Assembly: GCF_048128805.1 (NCBI RefSeq)
Contig: NC_136000.1
Span: 18,627,796-18,691,795 of the forward strand
Source of the DNA: Centroberyx gerrardi
Taxonomy: Eukaryota; Chordata; Actinopteri; Beryciformes; Berycidae
Length of the DNA stretch: 64,000 nt
Direction: 5' to 3'
The notes beneath the pieces are model-generated. The model was not told the origin of the DNA. It saw only the letters and a program-made list of their open reading frames with translations, and ran no database searches. The position numbers and the translations under genes are program-made. This document shows, in pieces, positions 3,001 to 64,000 of the stretch; the stretch's first letter is position 1; each line of letters starts with the position of its first letter.

Positions 3001-6000
3001 CTGTTTATCACCTACTCTAATGACCATGTAGAGACCATGACAAGCCATGCATGAAACATGATGTGGACAAAAAAATTTTCTTGTGTTTGAACACTATGTC
3101 AGGGTAAGAGGTGGAGGACGCCACAGCAGATCAGGCCCCTCCAGGCTTGTGGCAGCTGACTGCGCAGAGTCGACCGAAAATGGAGACGTCTTTGTGGACT
3201 GCCAGGACCGACGCCTCAACTCCATCCCCCCCTCAAAGACCTGGCCTCAAGAACCCAAGCACCTCCTTCTAGCTCGCAACCGGATCAAGGTCCTTCGCGA
3301 CGGGGCCTTCGTTGGGTTCGAGGGTTTGAAGAGCCTGGACCTGCAGCAGAACCAGATCTCTATGGTGGAGGAAGGGGCCTTCCAGGGCCTGACGCGCCTC
3401 ACGACCCTGCTGCTGCAGCACAACCGACTGGGCACGCTCAGTGAGGAGGCCCTTATCCCCATGCCGAACCTGCGCTACCTACGTCTCTATGACAACCCCT
3501 GGAATTGTCTCTGCCCAATGGATAGCCTCATACGCACCCTTCAGGTCCCAAGCAACCGCAATCTAGGAAGTCATGCCAGGTGAATGCCTCCACAAAAAGC
3601 CCTAGAGAGTAATCTATTGCTCTGATTCCACAGGTGTACAAGTCATTAAAGTGTCTCAGAATGATGAATAGACAACAGAAATCCATTATTCAGCTATTTT
3701 ACTGGCAATAACACTTTAGTTTCCTCATGCATCTCATGATATCCCCATGTATCCCCTGTATGTCATCCGCCAGGTGTGCTGAGCCCGTCAGGCAGAAAGG
3801 CAGAAAGCTGAAGCAGGTTGATGCCGAGCTGCTCTGTCGGGAGTCGGACCCCACCGGCGACCCACAGGGCGACCAAACGGACCCCACAGACTCTATAGAG
3901 CCCATTCCATTCCGCAACAAACCAGATGCCACCACCTCCTGCCACACCTACCTTTTCCCCCAACCACGGCTGGACTGCAGTAGCAGAGGTTAGCTCACAA
4001 TCAGCTTTTGTTTTCACACATCATTTTTACTAATTGCACTCTATTGCGCAAACCCGTGCCTCACTATGTTTCAGTGTGTAGGTTCGGCACATGTGTTTCT
4101 TACGTAACAGCTGGGTTAGGAAAAAATACCTCTTGAGCTCCATTGCAGAGAACACGTATGCTCATGATTAACTAGCGCACCCGTCACATGACTGGAACGA
4201 CAAAACCTCCATTTCTCAAAGGAGTTTCAGGGCCAGACGCAGAACGGGTAAAGAGAGGCAGCTGGTTTTTGGCAGGTGTTTTCTATTCTATGTTATGTTG
4301 CTTGCTTCCTTCACTTCTCAATGAGTCTACTTTATTAGTCATTCTCTTGTTATGAACTTGGAAATTTGGAAAGTATTAGCTAAATAAAGTTCTTCTAAAC
4401 ATGTTCTTTCTATCTGGTAAAGCTAATAAGCAAAAACAGTTTCATTTCACTTAAGAATACAAAATCAATCCATGTGTTCCGGCTATAATGTAAGCCTATT
4501 GGCAGAGAGCCTGGACTTTAGTAAGAAACCCAGATTATGGTCAGTTTTACAGTTGCTGTACTTGCAGTGCTTAGAGTGCCCATGGGAGTCTCAAACTGAT
4601 TTCCTATCTGGATTCACCAGAGCTTTTCCCTGGTTTGACAAATATGCATATAGAAGAAAACACCGTAACCCCAAATACTGAACAAATGAATGAAGCAAAA
4701 TTGTCTTTTTATGTAAAATGACCAAATGTGATTGACTAACACAAATAACCCCTTCTCCCTCTCTCTTTAGGTCTAACAGAGGTGCCTACAGGTATTCCAG
4801 AAGATATTGTTCATATGGATCTGTCCCATAATAACATCCATCACCTCCGAGCCAGAAATTTCCAAGGAGCCAGGAGCCTCAGGACTCTTAACCTCAGCAG
4901 TAACAACATGGAGCACATCGACACAGGTATAAGTCTGTATGTGCGTGTAGAGAGAGGGAATATCTCAGTGAATAATGTATGCTTATTAATCATTATCACG
5001 TGCTTCCTATTCACTGTAATATCCAACCTACATGAATAGAGTTGTGTTTTACTTTGGTTGATAGATAACATATGGATTGCCGAAAAGTTGTACGAAATGT
5101 TATACAGCTGGTAGGAGACATCTGCTTTCCTTTTTTACTTTTTAAAGGGGAGCGGGCATTCTGCCATCTTTGTGTATACAGTATTAACTTTATTTAGATG
5201 GGGGAAGACGAGAGGCTTACAGACACAGAGTGATTATAATACATTCAAGTGATGCGGACAGAAGCTGAACCTCGGCCCACACATTCCAGCTTGAGTGTGA
5301 AAGTTGACTGACAGGGCCACTGGCTTGTGCCTTTCTTAGTTAATAATACACTGCAACAGATCTGTCTAAATATAAGTATACTAATGATGGCCGCTGAGAA
5401 AGAAAAAAGGAGAACGGATAAATATAAGCTGCATCCATCCATCACTTTCTTGTTCTCTCTCCAAGCCTCCCTGTTTGGCCTCCTGCACCTTCGTGAGCTG
5501 GACCTGTCGGACAACGGCCTGCACTTCGTCCAGTACGGCGTTCTGGAAGACCTGTACTTCCTGTCGCAACTTAAACTGGGAGGAAACCCCTGGGTGTGTG
5601 ACTACAGGTGGGTTCTTCTGCTCATGAGCACTGATCGCAATGTGAACGTCTGCAATTTCCAAATCGCAGAAGCTGCAATTGCTTAAATAGAGGGGCGTCC
5701 AAACTGGATTTCTAAACAAAGTGTTTTAGTCCTCCGGGTAATCTTTGGTCCGTGAATCAAGTACAATATTGGTGAAAACCTTTCATCATATTCAAAGTCA
5801 ATAAATCCTGAACACTGACATCTTGTTTTTTTTAACATAATCACTTTTCTTTGATCAATTTTAAAGTTCTAAACAATTTATGACAAGAAAAACTCTTCTC
5901 TAACTTCTGTCAAATAATTGCAATTCAATTTTTTGTCCTTCACTGTCTTTCAGCCCTAGTACGCAATCAAGCTTTGTTTGACGCAAATGAAAACTGAACA

Positions 6001-9000
6001 AATAAATCAATTTTTCAGCATCCACTACATGGTGTACTGGCTGCGTCTGCACCCAGTGGTGAAGCACTCTGGCCTGCTGTGTCACTCCCCTCCTGAGCAC
6101 ACTGGGGAGAGTGTGGAGGAGTATGTACATTCCTACAACAGAGAGTGCCCTAAGGACAGACAGCGCAGCCAGACGGACCCGGACCAAACGGACCCCGAGC
6201 TCTGGAACACACCGCTGGAGCTGCAGGGAGAGCTGGAGGAGGAGCTGGAGCCGAGCCACTTGAGAGTGCCCCAGAAATACCAGATCATCAGGCTGTCTTG
6301 ACTGAAGTGATTATTTGACTATGACTTTAAAAAGGCTTCTTCGTTTCTACTTTCCCATCAACACTGAAAAACAGTCTGTATCAGAAGGAGGAACTCACTT
6401 TTTCAGTTTTGCTTTTATGTTTTGTCAATGTTGTATTTTTCATAAAAATAGAAAAATTATATCAACTTTTCAGCTCTTAGGCTAATTATTGATATTATTG
6501 TGAGAGAACTATCATTTGTACATCTGTAAACTATACAAAATGTGTATTTTTTTAACATTGGAAAACATCTGTCAAGAGAATCTGGAATACTCACTGATGC
6601 ATGTTAAGCTGGGCCACATTAAGGACGTGCATCCACGCATGTTGAGGTGGATCACAAATGGGCGGTAGTTCTGCAGAATCTGCTTCACCGTGCTGTCAGT
6701 TATCCAGTCTTTCTCCACAGAGAAGTTGATCTGGCAGAGCCAAACATTTGGAGAAATCATTAATACTCCTGCCTGAGTCTAGTGTTTGTTTGTAAATATA
6801 CACGATTATGAATTAAATGCATCAATCTCAGTATGAGGTACAGACCCGACTCCACAGCAAGCCAGACCGGATGATGGCTTTCCATGTGCAACACACCTCG
6901 GCACATTTCAGCCAGTCTCGCAACTCTAGATACTGAAAGATCTGAGGGAAAACAAACATACAACATGCTTTTTCCAATAGTGGAACTCTAAATATATCAG
7001 CACTTTAAGGTATTCATTTTTTCCACAATTTAAGTTCTATGCAGGAAAAAAACACCACCAAACCAACTGCCAACTGCCTGCAAAAAAAACATTCTTCCAA
7101 GTTGCTGTAATTGCCAAAATGCATAAATATGCTTGAAGTATGATTTGTAGACTTTGTTATCCAAACATGCAAGAATCACAAAAAAATGAATGTTGGTACA
7201 GACTATGATCCCCACTGCAACTAATATCAGTGCTTGACAGTTCATGAAGCTGTGGGGATAAATTCAAGGAAAAATGTTGTTTGCTTTAAGTGCATGTTCC
7301 TGTATCCCCTGATAACTTGACTGATCTTTGGTCCTGAATAGCTGTCCCTTTGGGAATGTGTGGCCAGTCTCAAGGGGGCAGTTTGCCGCCAATAACAAAA
7401 TATGCAACTGCCACCTCTGCCTCTGACCCACAGCCAATGTGCATGGCACTGCCATTTACATGTGTACAAGGCCACTTTCTTTCTCCAAACATAGTCATGT
7501 TGAAGCACTATTTACTGAGAGAGGTGCTGGACAGAAACAGCAGAACAATCAATGCCAAAACCTAGCACTCTGCACCAGAACAAGGCGCTAAAACAAACAA
7601 GGTGCTAAGACTGGATGGTCTAATAATATCCCACTAAGATAGCATACTCACTGGGATTTTTAAACATAGTTATAAATGTAAAATATAGAGGCGCTGGAAT
7701 AAAACATTTATCAAATATTTCAGGAATTATAAAACAAAAATATTATTAATAGAAACAACAAACAAGCTATTCATGCTACTCCTCTGGTAGAAAATGTGCA
7801 CAAAACACTCGGGAAGCAGCTCTGAAACACAGTGATAGATTCCTGAGAGGGAGTCGTCCTGTAAACACAGCCTTTACCATGGTAATGGATAATGGGCCAT
7901 ATTAGACCATAATAAGCCGCAACTGACTTTAATCAACTGACCTCAAAGAGACTGGGAGCATGTTTACAGTGAAGTCCACTTTAAGTCTTACGCAACAGAT
8001 ATGACCTCATCACTAACTGCCTGGAGGGCCAGGAGGTGAAGTTAAACCCAGGGCCATCTCTCTCTGTGAGTGAGCTAATCAGACTTATGAAACATAAGGT
8101 AAACCATATGGATACAACAGGGAGAAACTGGTGGAGTAACAGAGAAATACTGTGGTCACACTGCGAAGATGTAGGAGCGGGTACCTTAAGTAAGAGTTTG
8201 CTAGGGAGTGCCGAAAGTCCATCCCATCCTTCCCCAGTCTGATGCTCTTTGCTGCCCATTTCAAATAAACCCATGTCCAACTTCTGGAAGTGATAAGTAC
8301 ATCAGAGGTCGATGAATGCATCAATACACATACTGTGCACACACACACGCACACACACACACACACAAACACATACACAATTTGGAAAGGTCCTCAATCT
8401 CATTGTCTGAATGGCATACCTCAAAGTACTCTTTTGTCCTCTTTGAGTCCTTCGCAGCGCAGCGCCATGCAACTATGATGCGTTTAAGGCAGACAGCGTT
8501 TAAAACTCTCTTGAGTTTCTCAATGGCAGCTGAGTTGGAAAGGAAATTTAAATCTTGTTTGAATTCCCCAAAATAAGACTTTTGAATTGAATAAATACAG
8601 TATATAATACCACAATTTCTGCCATCTTATCTCGTTTATGAAAGAAAAAAAGATGTGGGATAGACAATGGTAACAATATCATGATCACAAATGTAGGTAG
8701 TTTGTATTCAATCTCCAAAACAAGTTGAGCTTCCAAAAGTAGAAAGTAAAGTTATAGAGTTAAACAGTGAAAGCATAGGGGACAAAATGAGTCACTGGAG
8801 TGGTTGTACAGTGCGAATGACTTTCAGTTTGGACACAGTTCTTAACCACAGTGTATGTTTTCTCTGGCGATATACTTGGTACAGTCATAGTTTGGGGGAA
8901 AAAAAAGTTAATCCACAACAGTTACACTAGTCATTATTATTCCTTTTTTGCTCAGAAATGCTAATCTGGTCACCTACCAGTCTGCGTCTTCTTGCGAAAT

Positions 9001-12000
9001 TTTACCCAGCTCAACCATTTGGCGAGTGCGACCCCCTGGCGCTTCCTCTCATAGTGCTTCTTTGCAATGTCCATCTTCAGATCCAGCTCCACGGCATCGC
9101 TCTTCCTCTTTGCGATGAACCTCTTCCACCTCCTGTCCCCACCCACAAACACAGCTCATCATTAATTCAGTAAACAGGCAGGCTGTCAGGGAACTCAGCC
9201 ACTCAACAAGATAGGAAGAAAAAATATTCAGGGATGAATTCTAAACATTGTGGTATTATCTCTAATTAGCTTCTTCTAATAATTATCTCAACTGAAGTGG
9301 GTTTTTAGATATTCAGATGGTACTTAGTGGTTGGCGGGACAAAAGGCCCCATAGGCCGGGGATGCAGTTCTCTATACTGACAATAGGGAGGTGAAAGGGA
9401 ATCTGGGAGATTGAATGACCTGGCTAACCCTTCAACTTGTTAACCAGTGATCCAGTGATCAAGAGAAAAGGTTCGGGACTTTCATTCACATGGGTCAAAT
9501 TTCTACTCAGCACTACTTCTGAGTCAATCTCTCTTAGTATTATCAGGAGATATATTGATCTTTTTATGGATCTATTTCAAGGCCTACATTTTTTAGGTTA
9601 GGTGAAAGGGCTTAGCATGTCAGTAGGTCTATTCATGAAATGTTATGAAATGACTTGAATGTGACCCCAATAGACTATGTTCCAAAAATATGATCACACT
9701 TAATCTATCTTTCTGTCAATCAAGTACAATTTAATTTGCATGTACCCAAGACTTTAAAAATACATGCAGTGGAAGGCAACAGATGTATTTTAAGCTATCA
9801 TCTTCCAGACAAATCTTTGGATAAGTTTAGTGATATTGAAAGCAAACAGCACACAGCATCCTGGCTCCTCCTGTGTTTGTGTAATTAGGTTGATTTCCAC
9901 ACAGCATCAGCTGTGTGCAATCAGCCAATTTTAATCAGTGTGGGCTGAATCTGAAAAGTTTTAGTATCCTCCCTTGCATTTTCCCCATCATTCCTCACTC
10001 ACAAACCCTCTGAGGAATTTCATGGAGGAAGGGTGAGGTTTAACAAAAGGTGAAACAAAGTTACACAATTAATACTCGGCCATGAATGAGCTGAGATGCC
10101 ATTTCCAGACGAGGTAGGAGGGCTCTCAAAGTGACAATTGTCTGGGCTGGTAGTTTTAATCAAGGGTCTGCTGCCACTGCTGTCACTGGGCGCTGTGGTT
10201 GAACTCACTGCCATGGCTCTTCCATTTGGGTAAGTGGAACAGTAGTGTTCTTTTGGCAAATCTTGGCCCAAGTTATCTTTTTGTCTAACTTTCATGTTTT
10301 TCAGGGTTCCTTGGCTTTGTATTCTGTTGTTCCGGGGCTGCATTTGTTTTCTTGCTGAAGAAGGTTAGAATTTGATATCATTCATTCCATTTAACTTGAA
10401 CTGGCATGATCAACCAGATGAATTCATTGTAGGTGTCCATTTATCCCCTGCTAGGTAACAATATTGCACATGGCTATCCTCTCGGTGATGATGAATTCAG
10501 CAGCTATGGAGGTGTACTTGCCCAGCATACCTCAGACCCATTGTATTATGGAGCATCTTCAAACACTGGCCATGACTCAAATCAAAGGGATCAGATACAA
10601 GCTTTGAGGCCCCAGAGCTTTGTCTCCCTTCAGAGAGATCCTGTCCCCCATGCCCACAGAAAGGAGGGTAGTGGGCCTTTTGCTAGTCCCGCTGAACTGA
10701 GGTGGGTGCAAAGCAACCCTGCATCAGGATTTGAGCCAAACAAGTTTTTTGTGATCCCCTCCACACCTTTTGTGCGAAAACATGAGCATGCCAATACTGG
10801 TTATGATCGACACCCCCTTGGCATTTTAAGGGAGGGCCATACACAAAACAAAGTTGTGGAGGGCGTCAGTTTCCCAACAATCCAACATTTCAAACAATTT
10901 GTAGAATCTATGAAGAGCTCCTTCCTGAAGCCAGGAAGTGACACGGATATACATTTTCAAACAGCCCGGGAAACTATGGAAAATGAGGTGATTTCTTATG
11001 TTCAACATATTAGAGAGGAGTCTGACACTGGCTATAGGTCTAATTATGTTGAGAAAAGGCCTTCCCAAAATGACGCCAGTGAAAATGAAGTTTGGAATGA
11101 ACCTCTAAATGCAGCGTTTGAACAGAATGAACAGGGTGCCAACTACCAAATGCCAGGAGAAAGCCTCTCTGTCCCTGATCCTGCTAGTGATTATAACAGC
11201 CAAGACTCTGGACCAGACCCTGTTTTCTACCCTAGCCCCGATTTAGCAGCAGTGGAACATGTTTCAAGTGCTGATAGAAGTTTCTCTAATGTTGATATTT
11301 TTAGGGAAAACCTTGATAGTTTGACAAGTACTCTTGATGTGCAGGGTGAAGATGAACAAAGTCCATTTCCCTCTAGCTTGTCCTCTGAGGTTTTTTCTTT
11401 TAGTGGCCATGTGACTGCTGCCCCAGCCAACCCTCTAACCAGCCCATCAGAAGGTCTCAGCCACCATTCAGGTAAAACATTTAATTTAGCCTCTGAGCAG
11501 AATAGCCAACAGCCAAAATATCCATCTTATAGTATCTCTGATGGCAATTCCTTTAGAGGCTACAGAAAACCATCTGGCGAGTTTAATAAACCCAGCAACC
11601 AAGTTCTCCAAGGTCAGCAGCTAAGTAAAGTGCCTCAAGCTGATGAAGTCATCTCTGCACAAAAGCCCTCATCCTTTAGTTCCTCCACTGAACAAATTAA
11701 ACCTAGTTCTTATGGTACGAGTTTGTACGTCAATACACCCAGAGGTGATCTAGCTCGGCTACCCAAACGTAAGAAGAAACCAGCCCCATCAGTTCAGACA
11801 TACCGAGTCCCTGTTGGCAAGGAGTCAAAGGACATAAACCGCCCATCCACTGTCCAGCTGCCTGTGTCTAGTGGTTTTGATTCCAGCTCAAATGACCTTT
11901 CACCTCAGAGTAGTGGTGGTGGTCATGTCAGTGTCCAAACAGGCAGCAGCTCGCATGTCCCTCAGGGTGAAGTGTCTCCTACAGAGCAGCCGGTCAGATC

Positions 12001-15000
12001 CCAGCTTAGCTTGGTATTTACTGTGAAACCTTCCAGCTCTCATTATGGCTCAAGTGAACATGATGGTTATCTCGGTGACTACAGAGTCGATGTTGCTCAC
12101 TCCTCCATCCCTGCTGACCAGGCAAAAGATGAGGAGAAATCGGACGTCTCCATGCAGAATCACCTCCCCATCATTCAGGAACCCCAACACATGCCCCACA
12201 CTCAGATTCCTGTTTCCAGTGGCTTCGATTCTACCCAGAGCGGGATCACACCTCAGGTCAGTGATGGCTATGTGAGTTTCAACTCTCCAACTGACCCAGC
12301 TCCAAGCGCAGAACCACAAAGAGCCTTTGCAAGCTTAGTTCCCAATGAAGAATCCATCAAACAAGAACAAAATGACTTTGCCATCACAAACTCTGAAATT
12401 GGCTCATATAGCCTTCATCCTAGCGGCAGCGATGACAAAGGCATGTCCAGGAATTTTGGCACCAAGAATACAATCTCTAGTAGGGTGCCAGTGATACTAC
12501 AACTTGGTGATATACCCAGTGTCAGAAAAAACCCTAGTTCATTCTCTAACCAAAATGGACAAGTCGGTTCTCAAAATAGTGGTGGCTACGTGAGTGGAGC
12601 AAGAGTTGGCCCTTATAAGCCGTTCAACCTGCCTACCATGGAGAAAAGTCAGGTTTTCATGCAGAAGCGTAAAATCAAAGCCAAGAAGCCCAGCAACTTG
12701 ACCTACAGACCTGCTACACAGCTGCCTGTATCCAATGTTTCTGATTCTACTTCTACTCAGAGTGGTGTCTATCAGAGGAATGGTGGCTACGTAAATTCCC
12801 AAAGGCTTACTCGTCAACCGGACTCGAACGTGTCCCCTCCACTTCTGCCCAGTTACGTTGTCAAGTCTAGAAACGGCTATGTAAGGGGCAAAATGTCTTT
12901 CTCACAAACACGCTACACGCCATCTTTGCTGTCTGGTGGCAAGGCTGCTAACGACCTGTGGAAACCTGCCACAAGTCGACGTCAATACAAGAACACCAGA
13001 TCCCAAAATGTAAAAGGACTGGAAGTACAGTGAAGCAGAGAGAACTGTCTTTCCAAGCCTGAGCTGAAATGGTATGAGAAACCTTTAAAATACTTTGCCT
13101 GCCTACATAGCCAGTGTGTTTATAACTAGAACTTAAAGGGCCCATTTGTTTGAATCTGAAACAAAACTGATTCAATGGTTCATCTTTCACATCTCAAAAT
13201 TAACAATGTTGCCCAATTTCATTTGAGTTTGAATTTGTCCTCCAATTATGTTATCGGGAAACTGAATCCTTGTATAGTGTTACCCAAAGCAAAAAAAAAA
13301 AAAAATGTATATATGGATTCAAAAGTAGCATGGCCCAAAGTTTCAGTGATGGATACTATTGTAAAGTCCAAGTTGATAAGTTGAAGTAATTTATCAACAT
13401 AAATAGGGCTCTTTAGTAATTGAGAACAGAGCATTACAACCAAATAAACGATGATTTAAAGAAAAAAACAAAACACGTTCTGGAGGGGCCAATTGCACCA
13501 AAGGGGGTCACTTGGATTATGGGCCATAATCCCCCCTTCAAGAGCATGGCTTGCCCATTTTATAGCCCAGAAAGGATAAAGCAAAAAACTGATGTAGTAA
13601 GCAAAATGTTGTATCAGGTCCAATTCTAGTATGAAAATTGACTGTCAGTACTACAGTGACAAACCTTTTTTCTATTCTTTATTGTATTATAGGCCAAACT
13701 GGTGATTGACAGCAAGTCCTTTGTACGGATAAGTATTCCCATTGTAAATGTTTAATATTCAAAAATTTGACAAATGAAATGCATTTTGGGTGCTACACAA
13801 AAGAGGCCTCACTAATTATGTTTTTTGGCTTTCAATAGGTTCTGTTGCCATGAGCTTCTGAAATGAATAACAACTAGATCTGGTTTCTGCTGCTCAATCA
13901 ACAAAGGAATTGGATTTTTTTTTTTCCAGTTCTTGTGTCTTCAGTATATCACCTGGGATAACCTAATTAAAAAAAAAAATAAAATCTGTGTTTCAGGGTC
14001 AGCGGTCTTTGTTTTTCCATCACAAGAGCCGTGTGTACAGTGAACTCCAATATTTGGCCAGTGGCACATTGTTTTGACCCCTATGTAGGGCGACGGTGAA
14101 CAAAATGGGTTGTAGATCTTTAACTTCCATCTTGTATTGCTCAAAATGCACTGAAAGTGCACAGTCTGAACTTTGACCTTGTTGTTGATGTGTTGTAGAA
14201 CGAAGACAAAAAGTGTTACTGCACAAATGCTTATGGAGCTCATGACTTGTATCCTCTTTTTTTGTTTTTTCCAAATATCATATTTCTTTGACAAATCCTT
14301 CAAAATAATGTATGGGTCTTCACTGCTGTACTTGGGCTTACCTGAAGTAAGAATTTGTTAAATTTCTTCTGTAACAGGAGTAGACCTTCTCAAACAGACA
14401 GGAGGACAGCTAAAAGGGAATATGGAATAGCAATATTTGTAAAAGGCACCAAAACAATCATTTAATTTGACTCAAGTCTGAGCAATTCTTCTGGGATTCA
14501 ACTTGATTTGTGATGGCTGTAAGCTATTGAAGCATACTGTACCACGGTGTCATCAGGGTCCTTACAGACGGTCTCCACAGTGCTACTTGTCAAAGAGGTT
14601 AGGGCAATGTGTTGTTCTGCATCATCAACAAATGTGTGCCTCGAAATAAGGTTGACATCAAAATCAGATAATACAAATTGTAGATTTATATTTCTGGTTG
14701 AAGTGGTTCATAAATTGCTGACTTATAAACTAGCTCACATATAGTAATATAGGCTACAGATATGGCTAGGCTACTTAACTGTCAAACACGCAGTAATGAT
14801 GGGAGTTTGACAATATAAACAGCAGTGTAAGAAGTAATACACAAATCTTATACATATATAAGTGATAAGTGAGTATTTTAAATTCTTTCAGCACACATGG
14901 CCTGTAGTGACCATCACTCATTTACTTTCATTTTGAAAAATCTAAATTGTATTGCAAACACGTATGTAAGAAGAGGCAGGCCATGTTATATCATTCTGCA

Positions 15001-15840
15001 TCCTTGGTCCTAGTTTAAAAATGAATTGTGCCTGTAATTATCATATTGAGGGCTGGGAATACCAGGGTAAGATAGGATTCCCAGGACTCCTGAGCAACTA
15101 CAGATGTGTAAAATGAAAAGTGAATATCACTTGGAAGTAGAAAAGTCCTGATGTAAAGACATCCTGATGAAAGTAAAAATCAAACGATTTTTTTGTGCAG
15201 TTATTTGTTACTTTCAGCAACGTAACATAGCCTAACTGTTGGGGCCAGTGATGCAATTACCGTAAATATTGTTTTTTTTGTTTTTTTTAGTAAAAGTATA
15301 AATAAAAATCATACAATTAAAATGCAAAAGCAGCCTACACGCACTTGAGGATGTAATTAAGATTGGTGCTTGTTTTCACTCCTCAACATCAGGCATCTTG
15401 GATTACACCCCAAGTAGAAATTCAAAACTTGAGAAAGTGAGCCACCAAGTGTTCATCTCATGGAAATTCACAAACCAGTCTGTGGTTCACTTTCACCTAG
15501 AAAGAGGTTTACCTACCAGTCAATATCCTGAAGATTGTGATGTCCCTGAAAGGCCATAAGCTTACTTTCCAGGAACTGTATTGGGTCGTTGGGACATGAC
15601 AGACATGAAGCTGTCAGTAAGGCCTGTTGTCAAAAAAAGAAGATGCTTAAGTTACAGTGAAATGAATTCGTCTGGTTTAGCTAAGTTAACTGTAACAGCT
15701 GACTTTAGCTCGCGTTAATTGTTAAAGTTATAAGGTTAACCAACCTTTATCTAGCCCAGGCAACTTACCTGATATATTTGCGGCAAGGAGTGTTTCAGTA
15801 TGTACTCTTTCAGAGCAGGCTCTGCGTCTTGTAAAGCCAT
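46..15840 (-). CDS. fbxl13: F-box/LRR protein 13 (dynein regulatory complex subunit 6), C-terminus off the left edge
   Basis: Orthologue of FBXL13/DRC6, a leucine-rich-repeat subunit of the nexin-dynein regulatory complex of motile cilia that also carries an F-box. Exons read on the minus strand: 15840-15769 (ATG, starts MALQDAEPALKEYILKHSLP), 15623-15517, 9132-8978, 8529-8420, 8283-8185, 6941-6846, 6730-6595, 2497-2445, 1917-1817, 1224-1095, 624-526, 166-46. The F-box spans the 8283-8185/6941-6846 junction (LSALPSKLLLK then IFQYLELRDWLKCAEVC). LRRs follow with motifs CRNLQELNVSECSNIT, LLYLNLS, LQYLSLAYCYRVTDKGFQYL and HLNLSGCTQ, in the same order as remembered human FBXL13. Donors and acceptors are consensus except the donor after 6846 (GTCTGT). 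Exons between 15517 and 9132 that should link the N-terminal domain to the basic helical middle region were not found. The C-terminal LRRs lie beyond position 1. Two genes on the plus strand sit inside its introns. Confidence 0.9.
269..440. repeat. (ATTCT)n low-complexity repeat, split by a SINE
   Basis: Tandem attct/attat units at 269-286 and 394-440 in an fbxl13 intron. The SINE at 286-393 sits between them, so the pentamer either served as the insertion site or supplied the target-site duplication. Confidence 0.8.
286..393 (-). mobile_element. tRNA-derived SINE, minus strand, truncated
   Basis: Read on the minus strand it begins GGGGCACCCCGGTGGCTCAA and continues with TCGGTAGAGC. That is a Pol III A-box in a tRNA-like head, followed by the AGCGTGTACCATTAAGGCT body typical of fish tRNA-SINEs. 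It ends in TAAAGCAACATGCCC plus an A-run. Attct-repeat DNA flanks both sides and looks like the target duplication. The tRNA B-box region is deleted, so it is not a tRNA gene. Confidence 0.75.
2842..6301 (+). CDS. lrrc17: Leucine-rich repeat-containing protein 17, nested in an fbxl13 intron
   Basis: Secreted LRR protein; mammalian LRRC17 is described as an inhibitor of osteoclast differentiation. Six coding exons: 2842-2966, 3103-3579, 3774-3988, 4771-4926, 5466-5607, 6019-6301, giving 465 aa (human about 441). Start: ATG at 2842 followed by a hydrophobic signal peptide (SSLLLTLWLLLLLP). Two LRR blocks follow. The first carries KSLDLQQNQIS, LTTLLLQHN and YLRLYDNPWNCLCP, the second VHMDLSHNNI, TLNLSSNN and ELDLSDNGLHFVQYGVLEDL. 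Each ends in an LRRCT-like NPW-C segment. The C-terminus has the family ECPKD motif and then an acidic tail (ELQGELEEELE). All splice phases agree. The gene lies inside the fbxl13 intron between exons 6595 and 2497 on the opposite strand, the same nesting as in mammals. A non-coding 5' exon boundary is likely at 2698 (CTCTGCAG). Confidence 0.93.
6302..8184. other. lrrc17 3'UTR and fbxl13 introns
   Basis: Downstream of the lrrc17 stop is AT-rich sequence likely to be its 3'UTR (to about 6560). The rest holds two fbxl13 exons (6595-6730, 6846-6941) and intron. No further gene, RNA or clear repeat was seen at 6942-8184. Confidence 0.5.
8337..8379. repeat. (CA)n microsatellite
   Basis: Imperfect CA repeat between two fbxl13 exons (8185-8283 and 8420-8529). 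Confidence 0.9.
9133..10212. other. fbxl13 intron; upstream region of the nested secreted gene
   Basis: No exon with convincing fbxl13 homology was found here. The last 200 bases are the only upstream sequence of the nested gene starting at 10213. No canonical TATA box is obvious. CAGCTG and CCAAT-like (gccaatttt) sequences occur near 9908-9932. Confidence 0.4.
10213..13033 (+). CDS. Unrecognised secreted, cysteine-free, Ser/Pro/Asn/Gln-rich repeat protein nested in an fbxl13 intron
   Basis: I do not recognise this family. The long open frame (10455-13033) is preceded by two short exons that splice in phase: 10213-10229 (ATGGCTCTTCCATTTGG, donor GTAAGT) and 10305-10363 (acceptor TTTTTCAG, donor GTTAGA). 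Together they give 884 aa starting MALPFGVPWLCILLFRGCIC, a good signal peptide. An acceptor at 10432 would hit a stop, so 10455 is preferred. The large exon contains no cysteine and looks disordered. Three related units start at about residues 493, 609 and 781 (QLPVSSGFDS, QIPVSSGFDS, QLPVSNVSDS), each followed by Ser-rich sequence ending near GGHVS, DGYVS or GGYVN. Two of them are preceded by basic KRKKKPAP / KRKIKAKKPS tracts then a TYR motif. The C-terminus is basic and Tyr/Arg-rich. It could be an extracellular matrix, egg-coat or adhesive protein. Intron phases (2, then 1) argue against the SCPP mineralisation family. Existence is likely, function unknown. Confidence 0.72.
13034..15516. 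other. 3'UTR of the nested secreted gene and fbxl13 intron
   Basis: AATAAA at 13443-13448, about 410 bases after the stop, is a plausible polyadenylation signal. A second possible one is near 13977. The rest is AT-rich. One or more fbxl13 exons linking residue ~60 to the basic helical region are expected between here and 9132 but were not identified. Confidence 0.4.
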
Positions 15841-16487
15841 ATCGTGCCTCTGATTAAAAATGAGCAAGACTGAAAAATGTGTCAGATTTTGCTTTGAACC
15901 TGGTACTCTCCATCTCCAATTGGAAATTGTCCACTTAGTTTACCGTTGCCAGGTAACTGACTAACTAAAGTACACTCAGTGTTGGACAACTAATGTATTG
16001 CAGGGTAAAGATAAACCAAGCTAACTGTGTGAGCCTACCAGGATGCATATGACTGTTCTGTTCAGAGATAGTTAAACGTCTGTTTTGTTAACATATTTAA
16101 TGTTTAATAATTAAAAAAAAATAGATATATCCAAATATAATGGTCAGATTTTGGCCTGATAGCCATGCTAGCAACTCTGTGAAACGTTTGGTCGGCCACT
16201 GTGAGCTGCCAGGAACAACGGAGCAGAACATTGTTGACAACTCTAGCTAGTCAGCCAACTTCTTTACTTCCTGGATAATGAAGGTGTCAAAATGAGTTTG
16301 GCTAGGTTTGTAGTGGTTTCGTTAGATCTTCGTGAACGCTAGCTAACTAATAAGCGGAGTAAGTTTGCTGGTAGCAGACCATTCGACTCACATTTGTAAC
16401 CTAGATCATCTAGCTAGTTAATAGCTAACTTCATGTTAGCTTGCTAACAAATCTCTTAGCTAACATTACCAAAATTCAGATAGCAGC
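15841..16487. promoter_or_regulatory. Divergent (bidirectional) promoter of fbxl13 and armc10
   Basis: The two start codons are 648 bp apart and point away from each other, so this stretch holds both 5'UTRs and promoters. No TATA box is evident. It contains an RFX X-box on the fbxl13 side and many AGCTAAC / GCTAGC words on the armc10 side (for example 16338-16347 and 16411-16465). Confidence 0.7.
15945..15957. promoter_or_regulatory. RFX X-box (GTTGCC-A-GGTAAC)
   Basis: GTTGCC, one spacer base and GGTAAC form an almost perfect inverted repeat. This matches the X-box consensus GTNRCC-N(0-3)-RGYAAC bound by RFX factors. It lies 105 bp upstream of the fbxl13 ATG, the position typical of X-boxes in ciliary genes. 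Because fbxl13 encodes a ciliary axoneme subunit, regulation by RFX (with FOXJ1) is the natural inference. Confidence 0.7.
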
Positions 16488-18624
16488 ATGGGCGATGGCA
16501 GTGTCACTCCTAAGCTGGGCAATATGAAGGCGCTACTTGGTATAGTTGCCGGGGCTGGAGCCTCCTACGGGATTTACAAACTTATCAGCGGGGGAAGCTT
16601 CAAGAGAAACAAGAAAAGTGCCACCAGTGAAAGTCGTGGTGTCAAGGGCAGTCAGCCTGGTGAAGTCACCCTACAACCGGGGAGCCTATTGGCCAAAGTA
16701 TCTGGACTGAATGTTGTTTGTACCCGAGGGGTTGACACTCAGACTGTGGATGTTGCATCAGGTAAGAGCTGTCGAGCTAGCTAACATGAGCTGCTTTGTT
16801 GTCGAAGTATGCTCCTCACTCCCTGCTGATAAGCTTGTGTCTGCCAACGTCAGCCACAGTTGGTCACAAATGCACAGTCTCCTGCATTGCTAACGTGTAT
16901 TAAATATTAAATGTATTATTTTGCTCCACAGGTGACATCATCTCAAAGTCACCTGGGAGCCTGGAGCCACAGCACCTGAAGATGCTGCTGTCATGTCTCC
17001 AGACCAACAGTAATCCATCTGACAGATGTCGGATCCTACTCACTCTAGGAAATGCTGCTGCCTTCACTGTTAACCAGGTACAGTAAAACTAGGCTTTCTA
17101 CAATTTTCACAATTGTAAAGTTATATAGTTGTTGTACTTTGTCAGATATGTCACTCACAGTCACTCACACTCACATTTGTATAATGACATGTCTTGCCAG
17201 CCGTGTAATTCCATCTTTCTGCATTTTTCTGCTCCACTGATCCTTCAGGATCTCATACGGGAATTTGAAGGCCTTCATGTCATAGCTGGCTTCCTTTCGG
17301 ATCCTGTGGCAGAAGTTAGAGTGCAGACTCTGCATGCTTTGAATAATCTGAGCATGAACCTCCAAAACCAGGAACAGCTAAAGGTATGTTGTCATATTTA
17401 CTGCACAACAAATGCCATTTAGTCTATTGTAGAGTCTGAATACTGTAGCATCCTTCTACTCTACCTTTTCTTTTATGTATTCACATCTGTCTTAAGTGAT
17501 GATTTTGGAGAAGACAGGCTCTCTTAAATATTGTATCTTGCCTTCATAGGTTTATGTGCCACAAGTACTGGAGCTGATTGAGATGTCACCAGTGAATTCT
17601 GACCTCCAGCTTGGTGCTCTCAGGCTGTTAACAAACCTCTCAGTCACAGACAAGCATCAACACTTGCTGAAGGGATCAATCACACTTTTACTCTCTTTGC
17701 TCATTGTGAGCAATGAAGCATTACAGGTCAGTAGGATCCTGCCCTCTGCATCCTTTTGGGGTTGCACCTGTGTCAATATTCTCTAAATTGTTCTTCTTCA
17801 AGAGTATCATAGTCCCATTGAACTTTTCATATATCATGATCTGTAATGTGTCACTACCATTCTGAGACACTTGATGCATACCAGCACTAGTTGGAAGACA
17901 GAAAAGGCTGTGAAAAGAAACTGTATGTGAAGTTCTTCCAATATTTTTCTTTCAGGTTCAGGCTTTGAAAGTCCTTGTGAATTTATCATCTAATCCAGAT
18001 ATGATGGACGACATTGTTCAAGCCCAGGTGAGATTAACTAAATTGGTAACATGATTATGCGTATATGGAGCAATCATTTTTGGTAATTGAATATAGGAGA
18101 TATAAGTAAGCCTTCATCACGGCAGAAATACCCATAGGGCAGGAGCTTATCTCTGGTGTGAGCAGGGTCATTACTTTTTACTTCTAAGACCTTTTGCTTA
18201 GCAATAGCATAGCAATAGAAATGATTAACTACAGAAGTTCAGAAAGACTCAAAGGCACCTCTACTCTATATAACTCTCAAATACTAGTCGTTATTTTTAA
18301 TGATGCATATAGAAGCCCATGGTCATTATAAATCCTTATTTTAATCCTGTTCTCTATGTGCTTTTGCCTCAGGCACCAGCTTCTGTTGTGCTGCTGTTCG
18401 ACGTGCGGACCGCCCCTGCAGTGCTTCTGCGACTGCTGACGTTTGCAGGGAACTTAAAGGCCTGGAGGCCCTCTGCCCAGGTGGCTGACGAGCTGAGGTG
18501 GAAGCAGGATTGCCTCTTCCGGGTTCTGTTAGATGAGTCTTCCCAGCTCCACAGCAGACTGGTCCAGCTGCTTTCACACCCTGATGGGGAGGTTCAGGCC
18601 CAGGTGGCCCGTATCCTGACGTAG
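16488..18624 (+). CDS. armc10: Armadillo repeat-containing protein 10
   Basis: Mitochondrial outer-membrane armadillo-repeat protein (SVH in human), linked to mitochondrial dynamics and cell survival. Six coding exons: 16488-16761, 16932-17077, 17249-17383, 17550-17726, 17956-18027, 18373-18624, giving 351 aa (human 343). The N-terminus MGDGSVTPKLGNMKALLGIV has one hydrophobic segment (about residues 14-33, ALLGIVAGAGASYGIYKLI) followed by basic residues, the usual signal-anchor. ARM-type helices include CRILLTLGNAAAFTVNQ, VQTLHALNNLSMN, LGALRLLTNLSVT and VQALKVLVNLSSNPDMMD. All splice phases agree. It is divergently paired with fbxl13, as in human 7q22. Confidence 0.94.
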
Positions 18625-23814: not shown

Positions 23815-26800
23815 GCAGTAGGAGGAGGCAACAGTATGATAATTACAGCCTAACTGGAACAACCATTTAAGCTTTCATTTGAAGACCGAAACAAACCACC
23901 CTCCACCTCCCTCTTCATCTATTCTGTTAGCTCAGAGAGAGAGAGAGAGAGGGAGAGAGAGAGAGACTGCATTTGAGTGAGTTTTGGGGTTGTGTGATCC
24001 CTAGGGTGGGAAGTTGTGTCAGGAGGAGTGTGGGTCTCAATTGGGTCAAGTGGTGACAGTCAGGATGATGTAACTGCTGACGAGCTCCGTCTTGACGGCT
24101 ATCTTCAAGGCCACAGCGCCACAGCGGAAATGCTACCATGGCAACTAGATGTCTTTCTGTGAGGCTGGATTCTCTCTCTCTCTCTCTGTCTCTCTCTCTT
24201 TGTCTCTCGCTCTCATTCTCTCTCCCTCTCTTCCATTTTTTCATCATTTAGCCCTCCAAAGATATCAGCGCCTCAACTCTCAACTTCGCTGTGACAACAT
24301 GATCTCTGGATGTCATGCCAGTTAGGAATTGGAGAGGGTGCAGGTTGTTGTTGCTCCCTGTTTGTTTCCCTGTTAGTCCTCTCCACACCAACGCTAATGC
24401 GTATCCTTGGCAAAGAACATTGCCTCCCCCTCTCGTCATAGTAATGCATTAGCTCCTCTCTCCCACCTGCTAGTCTGACTCAATTTAACTGTGTGTGTGG
24501 ATCCTTCTCGCTCTGCCTACGGCGCCGTTTCCTTTCGCAGGTTCTTGTGCGTCATCTCGGAGGCAGGTGGATGCTGCTTAATAAATGCGTCAAAGCTGAC
24601 AGTCGTTTGCCTTTCGCAGTTGTTTTTGTTCTTGCAATGCAGTGATGTCAGTTACACCTATTGAACTTTGAGAATCTATTAATTAAACAAGGAATTCAGT
24701 CAAGAGTACAAGGGCATCCCCTTAGAAACTGGAAGAATGAGAGTGCCTCACTCATTACTCAGGCTCTCAGTGAGTCACTCACTCACTGACTCACACAATC
24801 ACACACACACTTTCTTTCTCTCCCTCTTAGTCGCTCTCTCTTATTCAGCAGCTCCTCTCCATGCACCCAGGTACTCACACACAAACGCCACTCTTTATGT
24901 AACTGGAGCCGGAAGCTGACACAAGGTGCAGAGAGTGTGACAGAGGAGAGACTTCAGCCAGACAGGGCAATGCATCAAATGTATGCGTTGTGAATGTAGG
25001 AATGCATAATAGATTTTCTTTTTTGCAGGTAATGCAAATTCAACCCATTTGTGTAACTCTAATATAGAAATCTCTCATCCTTTCTCCAGAGCCTCCCTGA
25101 TGTATAACGAATCAGTTTCTTTTATGTCAGTATGTTTGTTCTATGTGCGTCCTAGAAGTGAAAAGAGGTTCCTACTGCAGAGTGACGGGGATGTGGGGTG
25201 TTGTACCGGCTTCTCCAGTCTATCTCTATGGTAATGAGTTGAGTTACATAAGTCTTGGCAGGGTTTCCCCCTCTTTGCTGCAGAATGGCCCCTACTGTCT
25301 AACCTCTGTCTTGCTGTTGACAATAGAGGAGTGTTTTTTTTAGCCGGTGTCAGACAAGGTTGTGCTGTCTGTGCTTTTGCACAGACTTTAGTGTCCTCTA
25401 TTGTGTCCGCTCCTTATGAATTCTGCCTCTGCAGCGATGAAGGTCATCTATCTCTCTGCACTCATACGGCTGTGTCATAACTCTCTCTCTCTCTCTCTGT
25501 CTCTGTCTTTATCTCTGTCTCTCTCCCAGGTGAGGGCTTTGAGCAGAGCCCCATTCGAAGGTCCTTTAAGTCAAAGGTCCTGGTCCACTATCCTGAAAGC
25601 ACAGACAGGAACCCCTTCAATAAAGATGCTGTCAACATGGTGAGATACTGGATTGTATACAAAGGATCTCTTTTAGCGTTGGCCATTTTCTCTCACAATT
25701 GTTTATTCAATGATAAAGATGGGCGAGATTTGCCCTGTTTTGAGGGCAAATGTTTTGTAATTCTTCCAACCAGTCCACATGAATAATGTTACAACTGAGA
25801 GGACAAACAGAACAACAAGATAACAAATTCAGCTCATGAAAAATGTGCACTAAGAGCCCGCGCTACTCCACTGTGTCTTTGCTTGTTCTCTGTTCCCCAC
25901 AGAATACAAACTCTGTTTTGTCCAAATACACAGAACATTTTCATGTTTGTTTTGTTTGTTTTGTTGTCTGTTGGATAAGCAGGTCAATATGATGTTTTAG
26001 TCCCAAAAGAATTGTTAACAGAATCAAATTCAATTTAATCGAGTAAAATGGACATCATATCAAAATTTGCTGTGAACAGCCTCCCAGAGACACTAAAGTA
26101 CCTAAAGTACTTAATGTCATTGTGTCAGTAAAATGTGTCAATGATGATGATATTATACAAACCCCATTTTCAAATGTTATGTTGCAATGATTACAAAACC
26201 CACTTATGCACAGTATCAGTATCAGAAGGGTTAGTGTTTAACAATTTGTTTCTCCCTCTGCCTCTCTATTCTCAACCCTCTCCCACACTTTTTCCATTGC
26301 TCCTCCTCATTCCTCATCCCTCTCTCCTAAGCTTTGCATGCCGAGGGGTTTGGCCTTCCGCACACAGGCCGACAGCCTTGAGCCCCAGTTCCACTCCTTC
26401 ACTGTTGCTACTGACGATGGCACGCGCTCCTACGGCTTTGTCCACACCTTCTACGAGGAGGTGACGAGCGCTCAGATCACCACCGCCATGCAGACGCTCT
26501 ACCAGATGCACCATGTGGAGCACCACTCCTCCTCGTCGGCCTCCTCTCCCTCTTCCTCCACGTCGTCTGCCTCCTCGCCCTCCACCTCCAGCATGGACTC
26601 GCTCGTGAGCAGCTTGGACGAGTCAGACGCCGAGTCCCTGGCCGGGCTGTCCGCCTGCCTCGGCTGCGCGGGCTCCTTCGACTCGGCGCGGGACACCCTG
26701 TACGTGTCCAAAGCCCTCTGCCTCCTCACGCCGCTCCCCTTCCTTCAGGCCGCTCGCCAGTTCCTGTCCCAGCTGCACCAGGCGGTGACGTCGCACACGG

Positions 26801-29800
26801 CCCCGCCCCTCCCTCTGGAGAGCTACATCCACAACATCCTGTACGAGGTGCCCCTGCCTCCTCCCGGCAGGTCGCTGAGGTTCCACGGGGTGCAGGGGCC
26901 CATCGTGTGCCAGCGGCCCGGCCCGGGTGAGCTCCCGCTGGGCGACTTCCCGCTCGGAGAGGCCTTCTCCCTGCTGGGCGTCGACAATATGGTGCAGCTG
27001 CTTACCTGTGTACTTCTGGAGATGCAGGTCCTGCTCTACTCTCAAGGTAACCACTCTTTATTGAGGGGATTTACTTTGGATTGCTTGGAAAGTAGGTTTT
27101 CCCTTGGTACTCTGAGGTGATTTTTATGTCCTCTCTCCATCTTGCCTCCCTCGTCTCCCCAGACTATCAGCGTTTGATGACAGTGGCAGAGGGTGTCACT
27201 ACCTTGCTGTTCCCGTTCCAGTGGCAAAACATCTACCTGCCCATCCTGCCGGCGCCGTTACATCACCTCCTGGACGCGCCTGTGCCGTTCTTCATGGGTA
27301 TCCAGCGGAGAGATGGGGCTCAGCGATCCTCCCTCCACCTACCGCATGAGGTACAGTACTAAACAAGGGGTTTTATGCGTACTGCATCTGTAGTTCTCAG
27401 TGTCACGTTTCTGTTTGTAACATCAGCATTCCAGGAGGCACATGTTCTAGTCCATAACATCACACGTTCCAATAAACATTCATACAGAAGGATCTAAAAA
27501 TTTCTGCAGCATTCTTCTAGCCTTTTTGCTAATCTCCTCCATTCTGCGTGCATAATAATATGCCCCCTGCCTCCGGCCTGGCAAACTCAGACGATGCAGT
27601 TCCTCAGAGCCCCCCCCCCCCCCCCCCTCTTTCTACAAATCCAATTCTCCATCCACACCGAAAGATCACACTGTGCTGCATGAGCATCTCACAAGAGCGT
27701 CTTTGATGTAGCTCTGCCCCAGAAAGGAGCCAGTAGAAAGAAAGCTTGGGGCGATGAAAGGAAAAACACTGAGCATTAGAGTTCCAGAAAAATCTGACAA
27801 AGTGAATAATTAATGCGAATTAGGGATCGCCGCTTATTTCTGGAATTGTGCAAGTTGATGTATGGGTGGTAAATTGCAATAGCAAGCAAGAAGTAAGTGT
27901 AAAGCATTTTAATCATACATGTGTGAGTCTGTGTTAGTCACTGCAGGTGCCTCCAGTTGACTAATTTTATTGACTTATTTGTGATTTGACTGCCCTGAAT
28001 CGAATATGTTATGCAAAATCAATCCAAAACTTGAATATATAGTTTCATCCTTTACTTTGGCTTCTCTCCTGATGGAAAGACATGTTGGGTAGGAAGAGAT
28101 AGGGCAGCATGAAGCTACAGGGAGTAGTCTGCTGGGGCGAGGGTGAGTCTGCAGCTGTCCACTCTACAGTTCATCTCCCAACTTCCCCTGAGGCAGTGAA
28201 CTGACTGTCAGAGGTCACTGTTGAAGGTTGTGTTGCTGCTGACTGGGCTGTTCCCCACTGCTGCTCTGAGATGCAGTTTTATTATCGGTGCATAAATTCT
28301 CCTTAAAATGTTGACTATCTACTATTCATTGCTCAGCACCTTTACAAGTACAGTTTTTGCACGATTTTGTTGTTTGTTTGCCAGTGCGGAAGTCTTGCTT
28401 GTCTAATTTTGCCTTTTTCTCGTATCTCTCCTGTGTAAGTGATAACTGTAATCGTTTGATAATCCTTCATACGCTAATATGTTGGAGTCTCTGGGAGCTT
28501 ATCGTGGTAAAATGCCAAGAATCCATTAATGCAATGTAAATCTCCCTCTCTGATCTTAATTGGATGTTTCTACACTTGCCCCAGTGCTATTAAAGCTTAA
28601 CTACTTTGTCTACATGCGATGAATAAGAGTCCGTACACTGTGAGTGGTTAAACCTATTATGATTATCTGTTGGGTGAGTCAATTGAAAACTGGTTTTAGT
28701 GGCAGCATTCAGGTAGCACATATTCTGATCTGTCTTGTTTGTCTGTTTGTCTCCTGCACAGGCCAACCTGTGTTTTGTGGACATTGACAACCACTGTGTT
28801 GAGGCACCTGAGGACCTTCCTTTGTTTCCGGACCAGACGGAGCTCATCCAGGAGCTGAGTGAGGTGCTGCTGCGTTTCGGCCTCCCTCCACAGGGGGGTG
28901 TGACCACTAAGCCTGCCGCCGCCACCTCCCCCTGCCTCAGCAGCCTGGTCCTGGAGGATCTGATGGAGGACAGAAGGAACGGGAACCTCGGAGGGGAGGA
29001 ACTGGCTGTGCTGGAGAGGCTGCAGGCGCTGGCGAGGAGGTGTGGAGGAGGGAAACCGTCAGATGGAGGGAAGACGCTGGGACGTGTGTTTGAGGAGGAG
29101 GAGGAGGAGCTGAAGTCTGCGAAGATGAACGTACAGCTGAGGGAGGTGTTCGCCGGCCGGTTTGCTACCATGTTTGGCAAATATGAGGAGTTTGTCATTC
29201 ACAGCGCTCCTGATCTGGACTCCTGGCTGAGCAACCGGGAGGGGACATTCAGCTTTGACAAGGTACTCAAGTAGATCAACTATTTTTTTATTATTATCCT
29301 TACTTACCTATTTATTATTATCCGTAGCTACTTTTTTCTTTCTTTTTTAATGTCATTTTACTAGACAAATTACTGTTTTAATTTCTGTTTTGCTTTTGCT
29401 TGTGTTTTTGATTTTGCTTGAAATTTTTGCTTTTGCTTGTAAATGTTTTAATGCATTTATTTTATGTAAAGTACTTTGAGTTGCATTCTATGTATGAATG
29501 GTGCTATAAAAAATAAAGTTATTAAAGTTATTACAGTGAATAGGCCTATAGATACAGTCGGCACAGGAGGAAAACATAATTTCTGTCAGCCGACGTAGGG
29601 GAAAACAAATCACTGGGAAGTACTGATCTTGGCTGCGCGCTATGAAAACATTCTTTAGTTTTGCCTTTTCTAAAGTCTAAAAACAAAGAAGGATATGTGG
29701 AAAAGCTGCTGTGTCGTGCACTGCACGGCAAATAAACATACAAATCCTGAACTTTGTTCTTGTACACACACCTTGTAGGTACATACACCATGTAGTAGTG

Positions 29801-44809: not shown

Positions 44810-46739
44810 AACACACACAATGTTATTAATTAACTGCTGCATACATTTCCCCCCTAATCTCCCTGAAGGTTGTGTGAAAGTCGATCTGGGGACATTTGTA
44901 ATGCCTGTGTGCTGCTGGTGAAGCGATGGAAAAAACTCCCTGTGGGGTCCAAGAAGAACTGGAATCATGTAGGTGACTCTGGGCCTGTGTTTCCACTTAT
45001 TCCCATAATGTCAGCCTGTCCCTTCATTACAGTCACCTGCTGTCCTGAGAAGGTCACATGGTGATACAGTGGAATGCTACAGTATGAATATTCATTTCCT
45101 CTCCTGTCCTCTCCCCTCTCCTCCCCTCCTCTCCCCTCTCCTCTCCTCTCCTCTCCTCTCTCCTCTCCTCTCGCCTTGTCTCTCCTCTCCCCTCTCCTCT
45201 CGCCTTGTCTCTCCTCTCCCCTCTCTTCTCCTCCCCTCCTCTCTCTCTCCTCTCCCCTCTCCTCTCCTCTCCTCCTCTCCTCTCTCCTCTCCCCTCTCCT
45301 CTCCTCTCGCCTTGTCTCTCCTCTCCCCTCTCCTCCCCTCTTCTCCCCTCTCCTCTCCTCTCCTCTCCCCTCTCCTCTCTCCTCTCTCTTCTCCTCTCCT
45401 CTCCTCTCCTCTCCTCTCCTCTCCTCTCTCCAGGTGGTTGATGCTAGAGGAGGTCCAAGCCTAAAGATAGCTGCCAGGCCAAAGAAGATAAAGTCTGTCT
45501 CCAAGAAAGCGAGGCCAAGCCAGATCAGCAGGCTGCAGAAAGAGCTTAAAAGAAACAGTGAGTTCTGCATTTTGCCGTTTGATTTGTAACTTTTGGTGCA
45601 GTGAATGGATTTTGTTTGACGTCACTCACATCTGTTCCTTGAAGGAATATATTTTTTTTTTGTCATATACATTCCCTATGCATGAACCCTTAAAAAATTT
45701 AGATTGCACACTACATCTTCATTTAATGTGACTGTTCTTCCCACCAGACTCAGACGCCCACAGCACCACCTCCAGCGCTTCTCCGGCTCAGTCTCCCAGC
45801 TACAGCAACCTGTCGGACGAGGGCTCCGACACTGAGCTCAGCCCCGGGTCCAGCCGCTCCCCTGTCTTCTCCTTCCTGGACCTCACCTACTGGAAGAGGT
45901 AAGTCAGCCAGTTCAGTTCATGTTGCTATCACAGCTTTCTTTGAACACGGCACTAACTGCTCCAGGACAACAACACTGTGAGGGAGTCTAAGCCTAAACC
46001 TGTCCTCTCATTTTAGATGCAAAATGACAAATAAGTACATAATGGCAGCTGTAATTTTACATTATTTTAAGCAATATCACATGGACAAGTAAAGAGCCCT
46101 ATTGGTTTACAGTAGCACATTTTAAGATGCCCAAAAATAAAAACAAGCATGTAATTAATGACAAAGCTATGACCAGCTTGTCACTTTGGAATTGACTCAC
46201 TCTGGATTAGAACCCAGCATTTCTGGTGTAGCAAATTTATGGTTTACAAATCAACAGAGTAACTTATACTAGCTGCTGGTCACAGCTAAAAATGGGATTA
46301 TATTCAATAAAGTTTTTAGTATCTATGTTGCATTACAATTTGGGAACTTTTCGGTAAAGTGAATAGCTCCGTTTGGCCTGTAGTGCAGTTTGATGGCTGT
46401 TGCATCGATCGCCCAAGTGCATAAACATGGTGGCCTCCTGGAATGACATCATTGGGTGCTACAGCTACTCATCTGCCACTGATGGATGTTGAAATATGGC
46501 CACTTTGCAATGTGGAATGGGTGTAACAAAAACAGCAGACTGCCATCTTTATGCACTTAGACTAATACTACAAAAAACTTGGACCGCTGACTTCCTTGTC
46601 GCTACATATTACGATTGAATTAAATTCTGTTTATTGTTGTCCAGGCAAAAGGTGTGCTGTGGAATCATCTACAAGGGCCGTTTTGGGGAGGTGCTCATTG
46701 ACCCCCATCTGTTCAAGCCCTGCTGCCGCAAGAAACAGC

Positions 46740-61321: not shown

Positions 61322-64000
<2,679 letters not shown>

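Follow-up and report, generated by a model that had tools for sequence, protein, structure and literature searches.

A coding exon at the presumed fbxl13 locus of Centroberyx gerrardi, putatively for a secreted, cysteine-free protein

A stretch of 64,000 nucleotides from the genome of the fish Centroberyx gerrardi (contig NC_136000.1, positions 18,627,796 to 18,691,795; called the window here, with position 1 its first letter) was found to contain a coding exon at 10455-13033 on the forward strand. The locus is very probably a real protein-coding gene, and its product is most likely a secreted disordered protein that is as yet undescribed or unnamed. The favoured reading, to which a probability of roughly 0.55 is given, is a fish gene for a secreted matrix or coat protein of about 860 residues, rich in Ser, Pro, Gln and Asn, free of cysteine and mostly disordered. 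Its observed parts are the coding frame, the amino acid composition, the repeats and the absence of a known domain in the searches made; secretion, disorder, a matrix role and the tissue are properties that we infer. Egg coats, enamel, scales and otoliths are built in part by long secreted proteins that are disordered and poor in cysteine, and many such matrix proteins evolve too fast for family searches. A clearly coding example without a family model is a concrete candidate that could be placed by its expression.

Coding exon and gene model

The reading-frame scan revealed a stop-to-stop frame of 866 open codons at 10433-13033 (+). Within it, exon 3 (10455..13033, +; 2579 bp, 858 complete codons and the stop) encodes nearly all of the mature chain. 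Sixty first-order Markov simulations of the 64-kb window gave no frame longer than 221 codons, and the remaining five frames over 10433-13033 contain 27 to 90 stops each. The three-base periodicity of exon 3 reached a signal-to-noise ratio of 19.7. Among 81 overlapping control windows of 2577 bp (one per 600 bases, from 13.1 kb onward) the median was 1.44, and the highest value, 4.99, came from the window at the DENN exon of a neighbouring gene. Periodicity was present throughout the exon, with values of 3.40, 10.15, 3.32 and 5.17 for four blocks of 516 bp, all above the 95th percentile of 516-bp windows (3.08). The original prediction had called the exon too long for chance, and with this frame length and periodicity a chance open frame was ruled out.

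No recognised family was found, as had been predicted. With an E-value limit of 10, the full 884-aa model matched no Pfam family, and the PDB, NCBIfam and PHROGs gave no match to the exon 3 translation at the same limit; this 858-aa translation, which starts after residue 26, was the query for those three collections as well as for IMG/VR, GTDB, the phage collection and AlphaFold. None of six peptide patterns matched any stretch of IMG/VR, in a scan that detects close relatives only. In GTDB prokaryote contigs 29 stretches matched a peptide pattern and none of the 29 encoded a relative, nor was a relative found in the phage collection. Because Pfam and PDB cover all life and the remaining collections consist of prokaryotes, their viruses and viral contigs, these searches count against known domains and transposable elements and say nothing on lineage restriction. 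Literature searches on fbxl13 or lrrc17 yielded no description of this gene. Fish databases may already list it as an uncharacterised locus.

That no known relative was found would also fit an exapted or recent transposon or viral frame, or a chance frame, an origin that we consider highly improbable. Length and periodicity exclude chance, as described above. A transposon or viral protein was rejected, with no domain and no match in Pfam, IMG/VR or phages. A 601-bp piece of the gene had a single match in the host genome (779 Mb, 278 contigs), at its own locus, in a DNA search that skips very common words and has diverged copies beyond its scope; no second copy was found within the 64-kb window. 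Homology to a transposon protein, one of the findings that the original prediction had named as refuting it, was not seen in the searches made.

The earliest Met inside exon 3 is residue 178, 152 open codons into the exon, so upstream exons are required. The predicted exon 1 (10213..10229, +; 17 bp, MALPFG with the last codon split) and exon 2 (10305..10363, +; 59 bp, the hydrophobic core of the signal peptide) join exon 3 in frame with GT/AG borders, giving 2655 bp for 884 aa and a stop. From the exon lengths of 17 and 59 the predicted intron phases are 2 and then 1. The start codon of exon 1 has G at −3 and at +4, and its donor TGG/GTAAGT ranks among the best 0.6% of the window's GT sites. 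The exon 2 acceptor ranks among the best 0.8% of AG sites; the exon 2 donor and the exon 3 acceptor are moderate, within the top 2.6% of GT and the top 3.6% of AG sites respectively. A possible polyadenylation signal at 13443..13448 (+), the first AATAAA 3' of the stop, is a string match only.

Alternative 5' ends were enumerated from 32 ATGs (about 9450-10960), nine donors and 12 acceptors above the cut-offs, with hand-written splice weights. Ten models remain open, of which the one starting at 10213 has the top score (19.4). The ATGs at 10022 (19.1) and 10082 (17.9), spliced to exon 2, alter exon 1 only; starting unspliced from the ATG at 10294 yields a comparable hydrophobic N-terminus and the same later chain. 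Exon 2 is kept in its original frame in these four models and used in another frame in one of the ten. In these five models out of ten, which include the best-scoring one, a hydrophobic core lies within the first 30 residues. A signal peptide supplied by the 5' exons, as originally predicted, is therefore credible among these models, and the 17-bp exon 1 is a best guess only. Of the earlier claim that two micro-exons splice in phase, the in-frame junctions and the GT/AG borders held, and the model ranks first among the ten; exon 1 is not the sole possible start.

Composition, predicted secretion and repeats

The 884-aa model contains 15.2% S, 8.6% P, 6.9% Q, 5.5% N and 7.1% Gly. Its cysteines are residues 11, 18 and 20 only, all in the signal region. 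By the −3/−1 rule for signal peptide cleavage a cut after Cys20 is plausible, and the mature chain would thus be cysteine-free; the Ser/Pro/Asn/Gln-rich, cysteine-free chain of the original prediction agrees with these counts. The N-terminus has a best 10-residue Kyte-Doolittle mean of 2.33, and no later transmembrane stretch was found, the 19-residue mean hydropathy never exceeding 0.63 after residue 26. There are three N-glycosylation motifs (residues 773, 786 and 817) and five S-x-E phosphorylation-type sites. The charge is split along the chain: residues 21-452, the N-terminal half, are acidic with a computed isoelectric point of 5.0, and the C-terminal half (residues 453-884) is basic, at 9.7.

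The mature chain is predicted to be mostly disordered. An AlphaFold2 single-sequence model of the exon 3 translation was mostly unstructured, with a mean predicted local distance difference test (pLDDT) score of 35.9; as no alignment stood behind this model, it is weak evidence for disorder. The same model contains a possible helical pair at 10877..11041 (+; residues 167-221), with helices 141-156 and 162-195 in the numbering of the exon 3 translation and a block pLDDT of about 47-68.

Motifs of the type PVSSGFDS and GYV recur in the C-terminal half, together with two basic tracts. The three QLPVSSGFDS-type units of the original prediction were retrieved at residues 493, 609 and 781. Unit A (QLPVSSGFDSSSNDLSPQSSGG; 11855..11920, +; residues 493-514, core QLPVSSGFDS) is preceded by the basic tract KRKKKP (11765..11782, +; residue 463), and unit C (QLPVSNVSDS; 12719..12748, +; residues 781-790) by the basic tract KRKIKAKKP (12665..12691, +; residue 763). 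Unit B (QIPVSSGFDSTQSGITPQVSDG; 12203..12268, +; residues 609-630, core QIPVSSGFDS) has no basic tract before it. The tract at 463 is followed by TYRVP and that at 763 by TYRP, each then by a PVS unit. No tandem-repeat array was found in 9000-14500.

Ungapped self-match scores were 71 for A-B and 54 for A-C; none of 30 shuffles scored above 51. The 10-residue cores of A and B share 9/10 residues, with four identical, five synonymous and one nonsynonymous codons; the corresponding counts are 4, 3 and 3 for A-C and 5, 1 and 4 for B-C. Over 22 codons the A-B comparison gave proportions of synonymous and nonsynonymous differences (pS and pN) of 0.71 and 0.24, for units selected for protein similarity. 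The synonymous codon changes between A and B point to a putative constraint on the protein sequence. The tripeptide GYV occurs four times in the protein, a count reached in 0/20,000 shuffles; it was picked post hoc and is also the most enriched among tripeptides occurring at least three times.

Basic tracts ahead of two of the three units, in a chain with a predicted signal peptide, recall a secreted prohormone-like precursor that is cleaved at these tracts to release repeated peptides. This is an unlikely reading of the locus: 860 residues hold just two long basic tracts, unit B lacks one, and the repeats sit in long unlike segments rather than being flanked by dibasic sites on both sides.

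Possible role and comparison with known secreted proteins

Under the favoured reading, the short 5' exons would provide the signal peptide and the one large exon would encode the chain. Once secreted, the chain could form the flexible scaffold of an extracellular layer, whether egg coat, skin or a matrix of the skeletal or otolith type. Its basic tracts may be binding sites for sulphated glycans or for acidic partners, or may be convertase cut sites, and the repeated Phe/Tyr/Gln motifs might act as self-association or cross-linking sites. This mechanism is proposed from the composition, and between egg coat, skin and skeleton the present evidence favours none. A further-reaching proposal, held tentatively and at odds clearly below even, is that the gene is the founding member of an undescribed, fish-restricted family of secreted disordered scaffolds that arose inside the fbxl13 locus, in which basic tract, PVSSGFDS and GYV modules would build lineage-specific egg, skin or skeletal matrix.

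Several points weigh against the favoured reading. Secretion and a matrix role are both proposed from the genomic sequence of one species. Exon 1 is ambiguous among the enumerated models. The basic tracts resemble nuclear localisation signals, and should the 5' exons be wrong this likeness would suit a protein that is not secreted. On the side of disorder, AlphaFold run on a single sequence also gives low confidence for many proteins that do fold, and the chain is borderline on the charge-hydropathy plot, where its value of 0.410 is just on the disordered side of the boundary at 0.417. Among the repeats, the B-C self-match of 45 falls below the shuffle maximum of 51, and choosing A and B for their protein similarity inflates the synonymous count.

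Some of these points would agree with a coding but intracellular, probably nuclear, disordered regulator with other 5' exons, for which KRKKKP and KRKIKAKKP would be nuclear localisation signals. Exon 1 is not unique, 6/10 models lack exon 2 in its original frame and 5/10 lack a hydrophobic N-terminus. This explanation is nevertheless improbable, if less so than the precursor, since the top model and its two nearest competitors (17.9-19.4) all include the hydrophobic core of exon 2, and no one-intron model scores above 7.8, although such a score adds up fewer sites. A cytosolic or nuclear chain of 860 residues without any cysteine would moreover be unusual.

The secretory calcium-binding phosphoprotein (SCPP) family comprises secreted, disordered chains that are P/Q-rich or acidic, with ameloblastin among the P/Q-rich members. 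The candidate resembles these proteins in its predicted signal peptide and its Pro/Gln/Ser-rich, predicted disordered chain, poor in cysteine (cysteine-free after the signal region) and with S-x-E sites. Such sites number just five in 884 residues, and the SCPP clusters are presumably located elsewhere, near sparcl1. The candidate also differs in having one giant exon, no Pfam match and predicted introns of phase 2 and 1, where SCPP introns are described in one account as virtually all phase 0 (PMC6732285). Membership of the SCPP family was rejected on this intron phase, the exon model being itself predicted, and a P/Q-rich SCPP or other tooth or scale mineral-matrix protein is very unlikely here.

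Elastin-, resilin- and calymmin-type matrix proteins are secreted, of low complexity and built with short repeated Gly/Tyr/Val motifs. The candidate is likewise of low complexity, has short Gly/Tyr/Val motifs and is predicted to be secreted, but its repeats are sparse and diverged, its Gly content is the low value given above (7.1%) and it has no Pfam match. A secreted coat role such as that of the zona pellucida (ZP) proteins is possible for the candidate, if speculative. The disulphide-bonded ZP domain is the hallmark of zona pellucida egg-coat proteins. No ZP domain was found in the candidate by Pfam (0 families at E up to 10) and no cysteine follows residue 20, and a ZP protein was rejected. 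ZP domain proteins are named as the leading family in an account of the zebrafish chorion proteome (PMC13079451).

Neighbourhood and presumed host gene

A Pfam scan of 15 stretches of the window recognised leucine-rich repeat (LRR), Arm_2 and DENN genes as neighbours. On the minus strand, 1014-1241 matches FBXL-type LRRs (best FBXL2, E = 2.8e-24). On the plus strand, the matches were LRR_8 at 3065-3580 (E = 3.4e-25), a weak LRR at 5315-5683 and Arm_2 in stretches at 17.1-18.6 kb. The LRR stretches at 3062-5700 (+), probably lrrc17, are on the strand of the candidate gene and inside the span of the minus-strand FBXL-type gene.

The F-box/LRR gene on the opposite strand is probably fbxl13. FBXL13 and ARMC10 are known as adjacent genes. 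A minus-strand frame at about 15769-15840 reads MALQDAEPALKEYILKHSLPQIYQ and is followed by GTAAGT, an excellent donor (CAG/GTAAGT); it could be the F-box/LRR gene's initial coding exon. A plus-strand frame about 0.6 kb away resembles the start of ARMC10, and if 15769-15840 is the first coding exon a shared bidirectional promoter is suggested. With that exon as the first, the candidate gene would be nested antisense in fbxl13.

The Pfam checks of the host gene covered eight neighbouring stretches. The presumed F-box exon gave no F-box match (DUF7183 only, E = 0.08), one presumed N-terminal fbxl13 exon matched neither Pfam nor the PDB, another gave RGI_lyase only (E = 0.021), below the cut-off, and the presumed first ARMC10 exon (16467-16781) had no Pfam match. 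The predicted nesting in an fbxl13 intron draws on the FBXL-type LRRs on the minus strand, on the neighbours and on the expected gene order, and not on any direct fbxl13 match.

LRRC17 nested in FBXL13 appears in a list of such pairs (PMC3933685); if the host is fbxl13, the candidate would be a second nested gene in it. It shares with the probable lrrc17 exons (3.06-5.7 kb) the presumed host and the strand, and differs from LRRC17 in its place and in that no LRR or other domain was found in Pfam. A tblastn search of the window with the protein (E up to 10) gave no match to the LRR stretch. The GC content at third codon positions (GC3) is 0.41 in the candidate gene, with AT-rich third positions, versus 0.67 in the LRR exons and 0.79 in the DENN exons, so the candidate differs from both in composition.

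Three other stretches of the window were noted. A uDENN/DENN exon lies at 26242-27120 (+; GC3 0.79), about 13 kb from the candidate gene. At 61322-62170 (−) a 282-codon frame overlaps an opposite-strand frame of 158 codons, neither of them matching Pfam at E up to 0.01. The stretch at 44965-45621 is of strongly strand-skewed purine/pyrimidine low complexity, open in several frames on both strands, and is a simple repeat rather than a gene.

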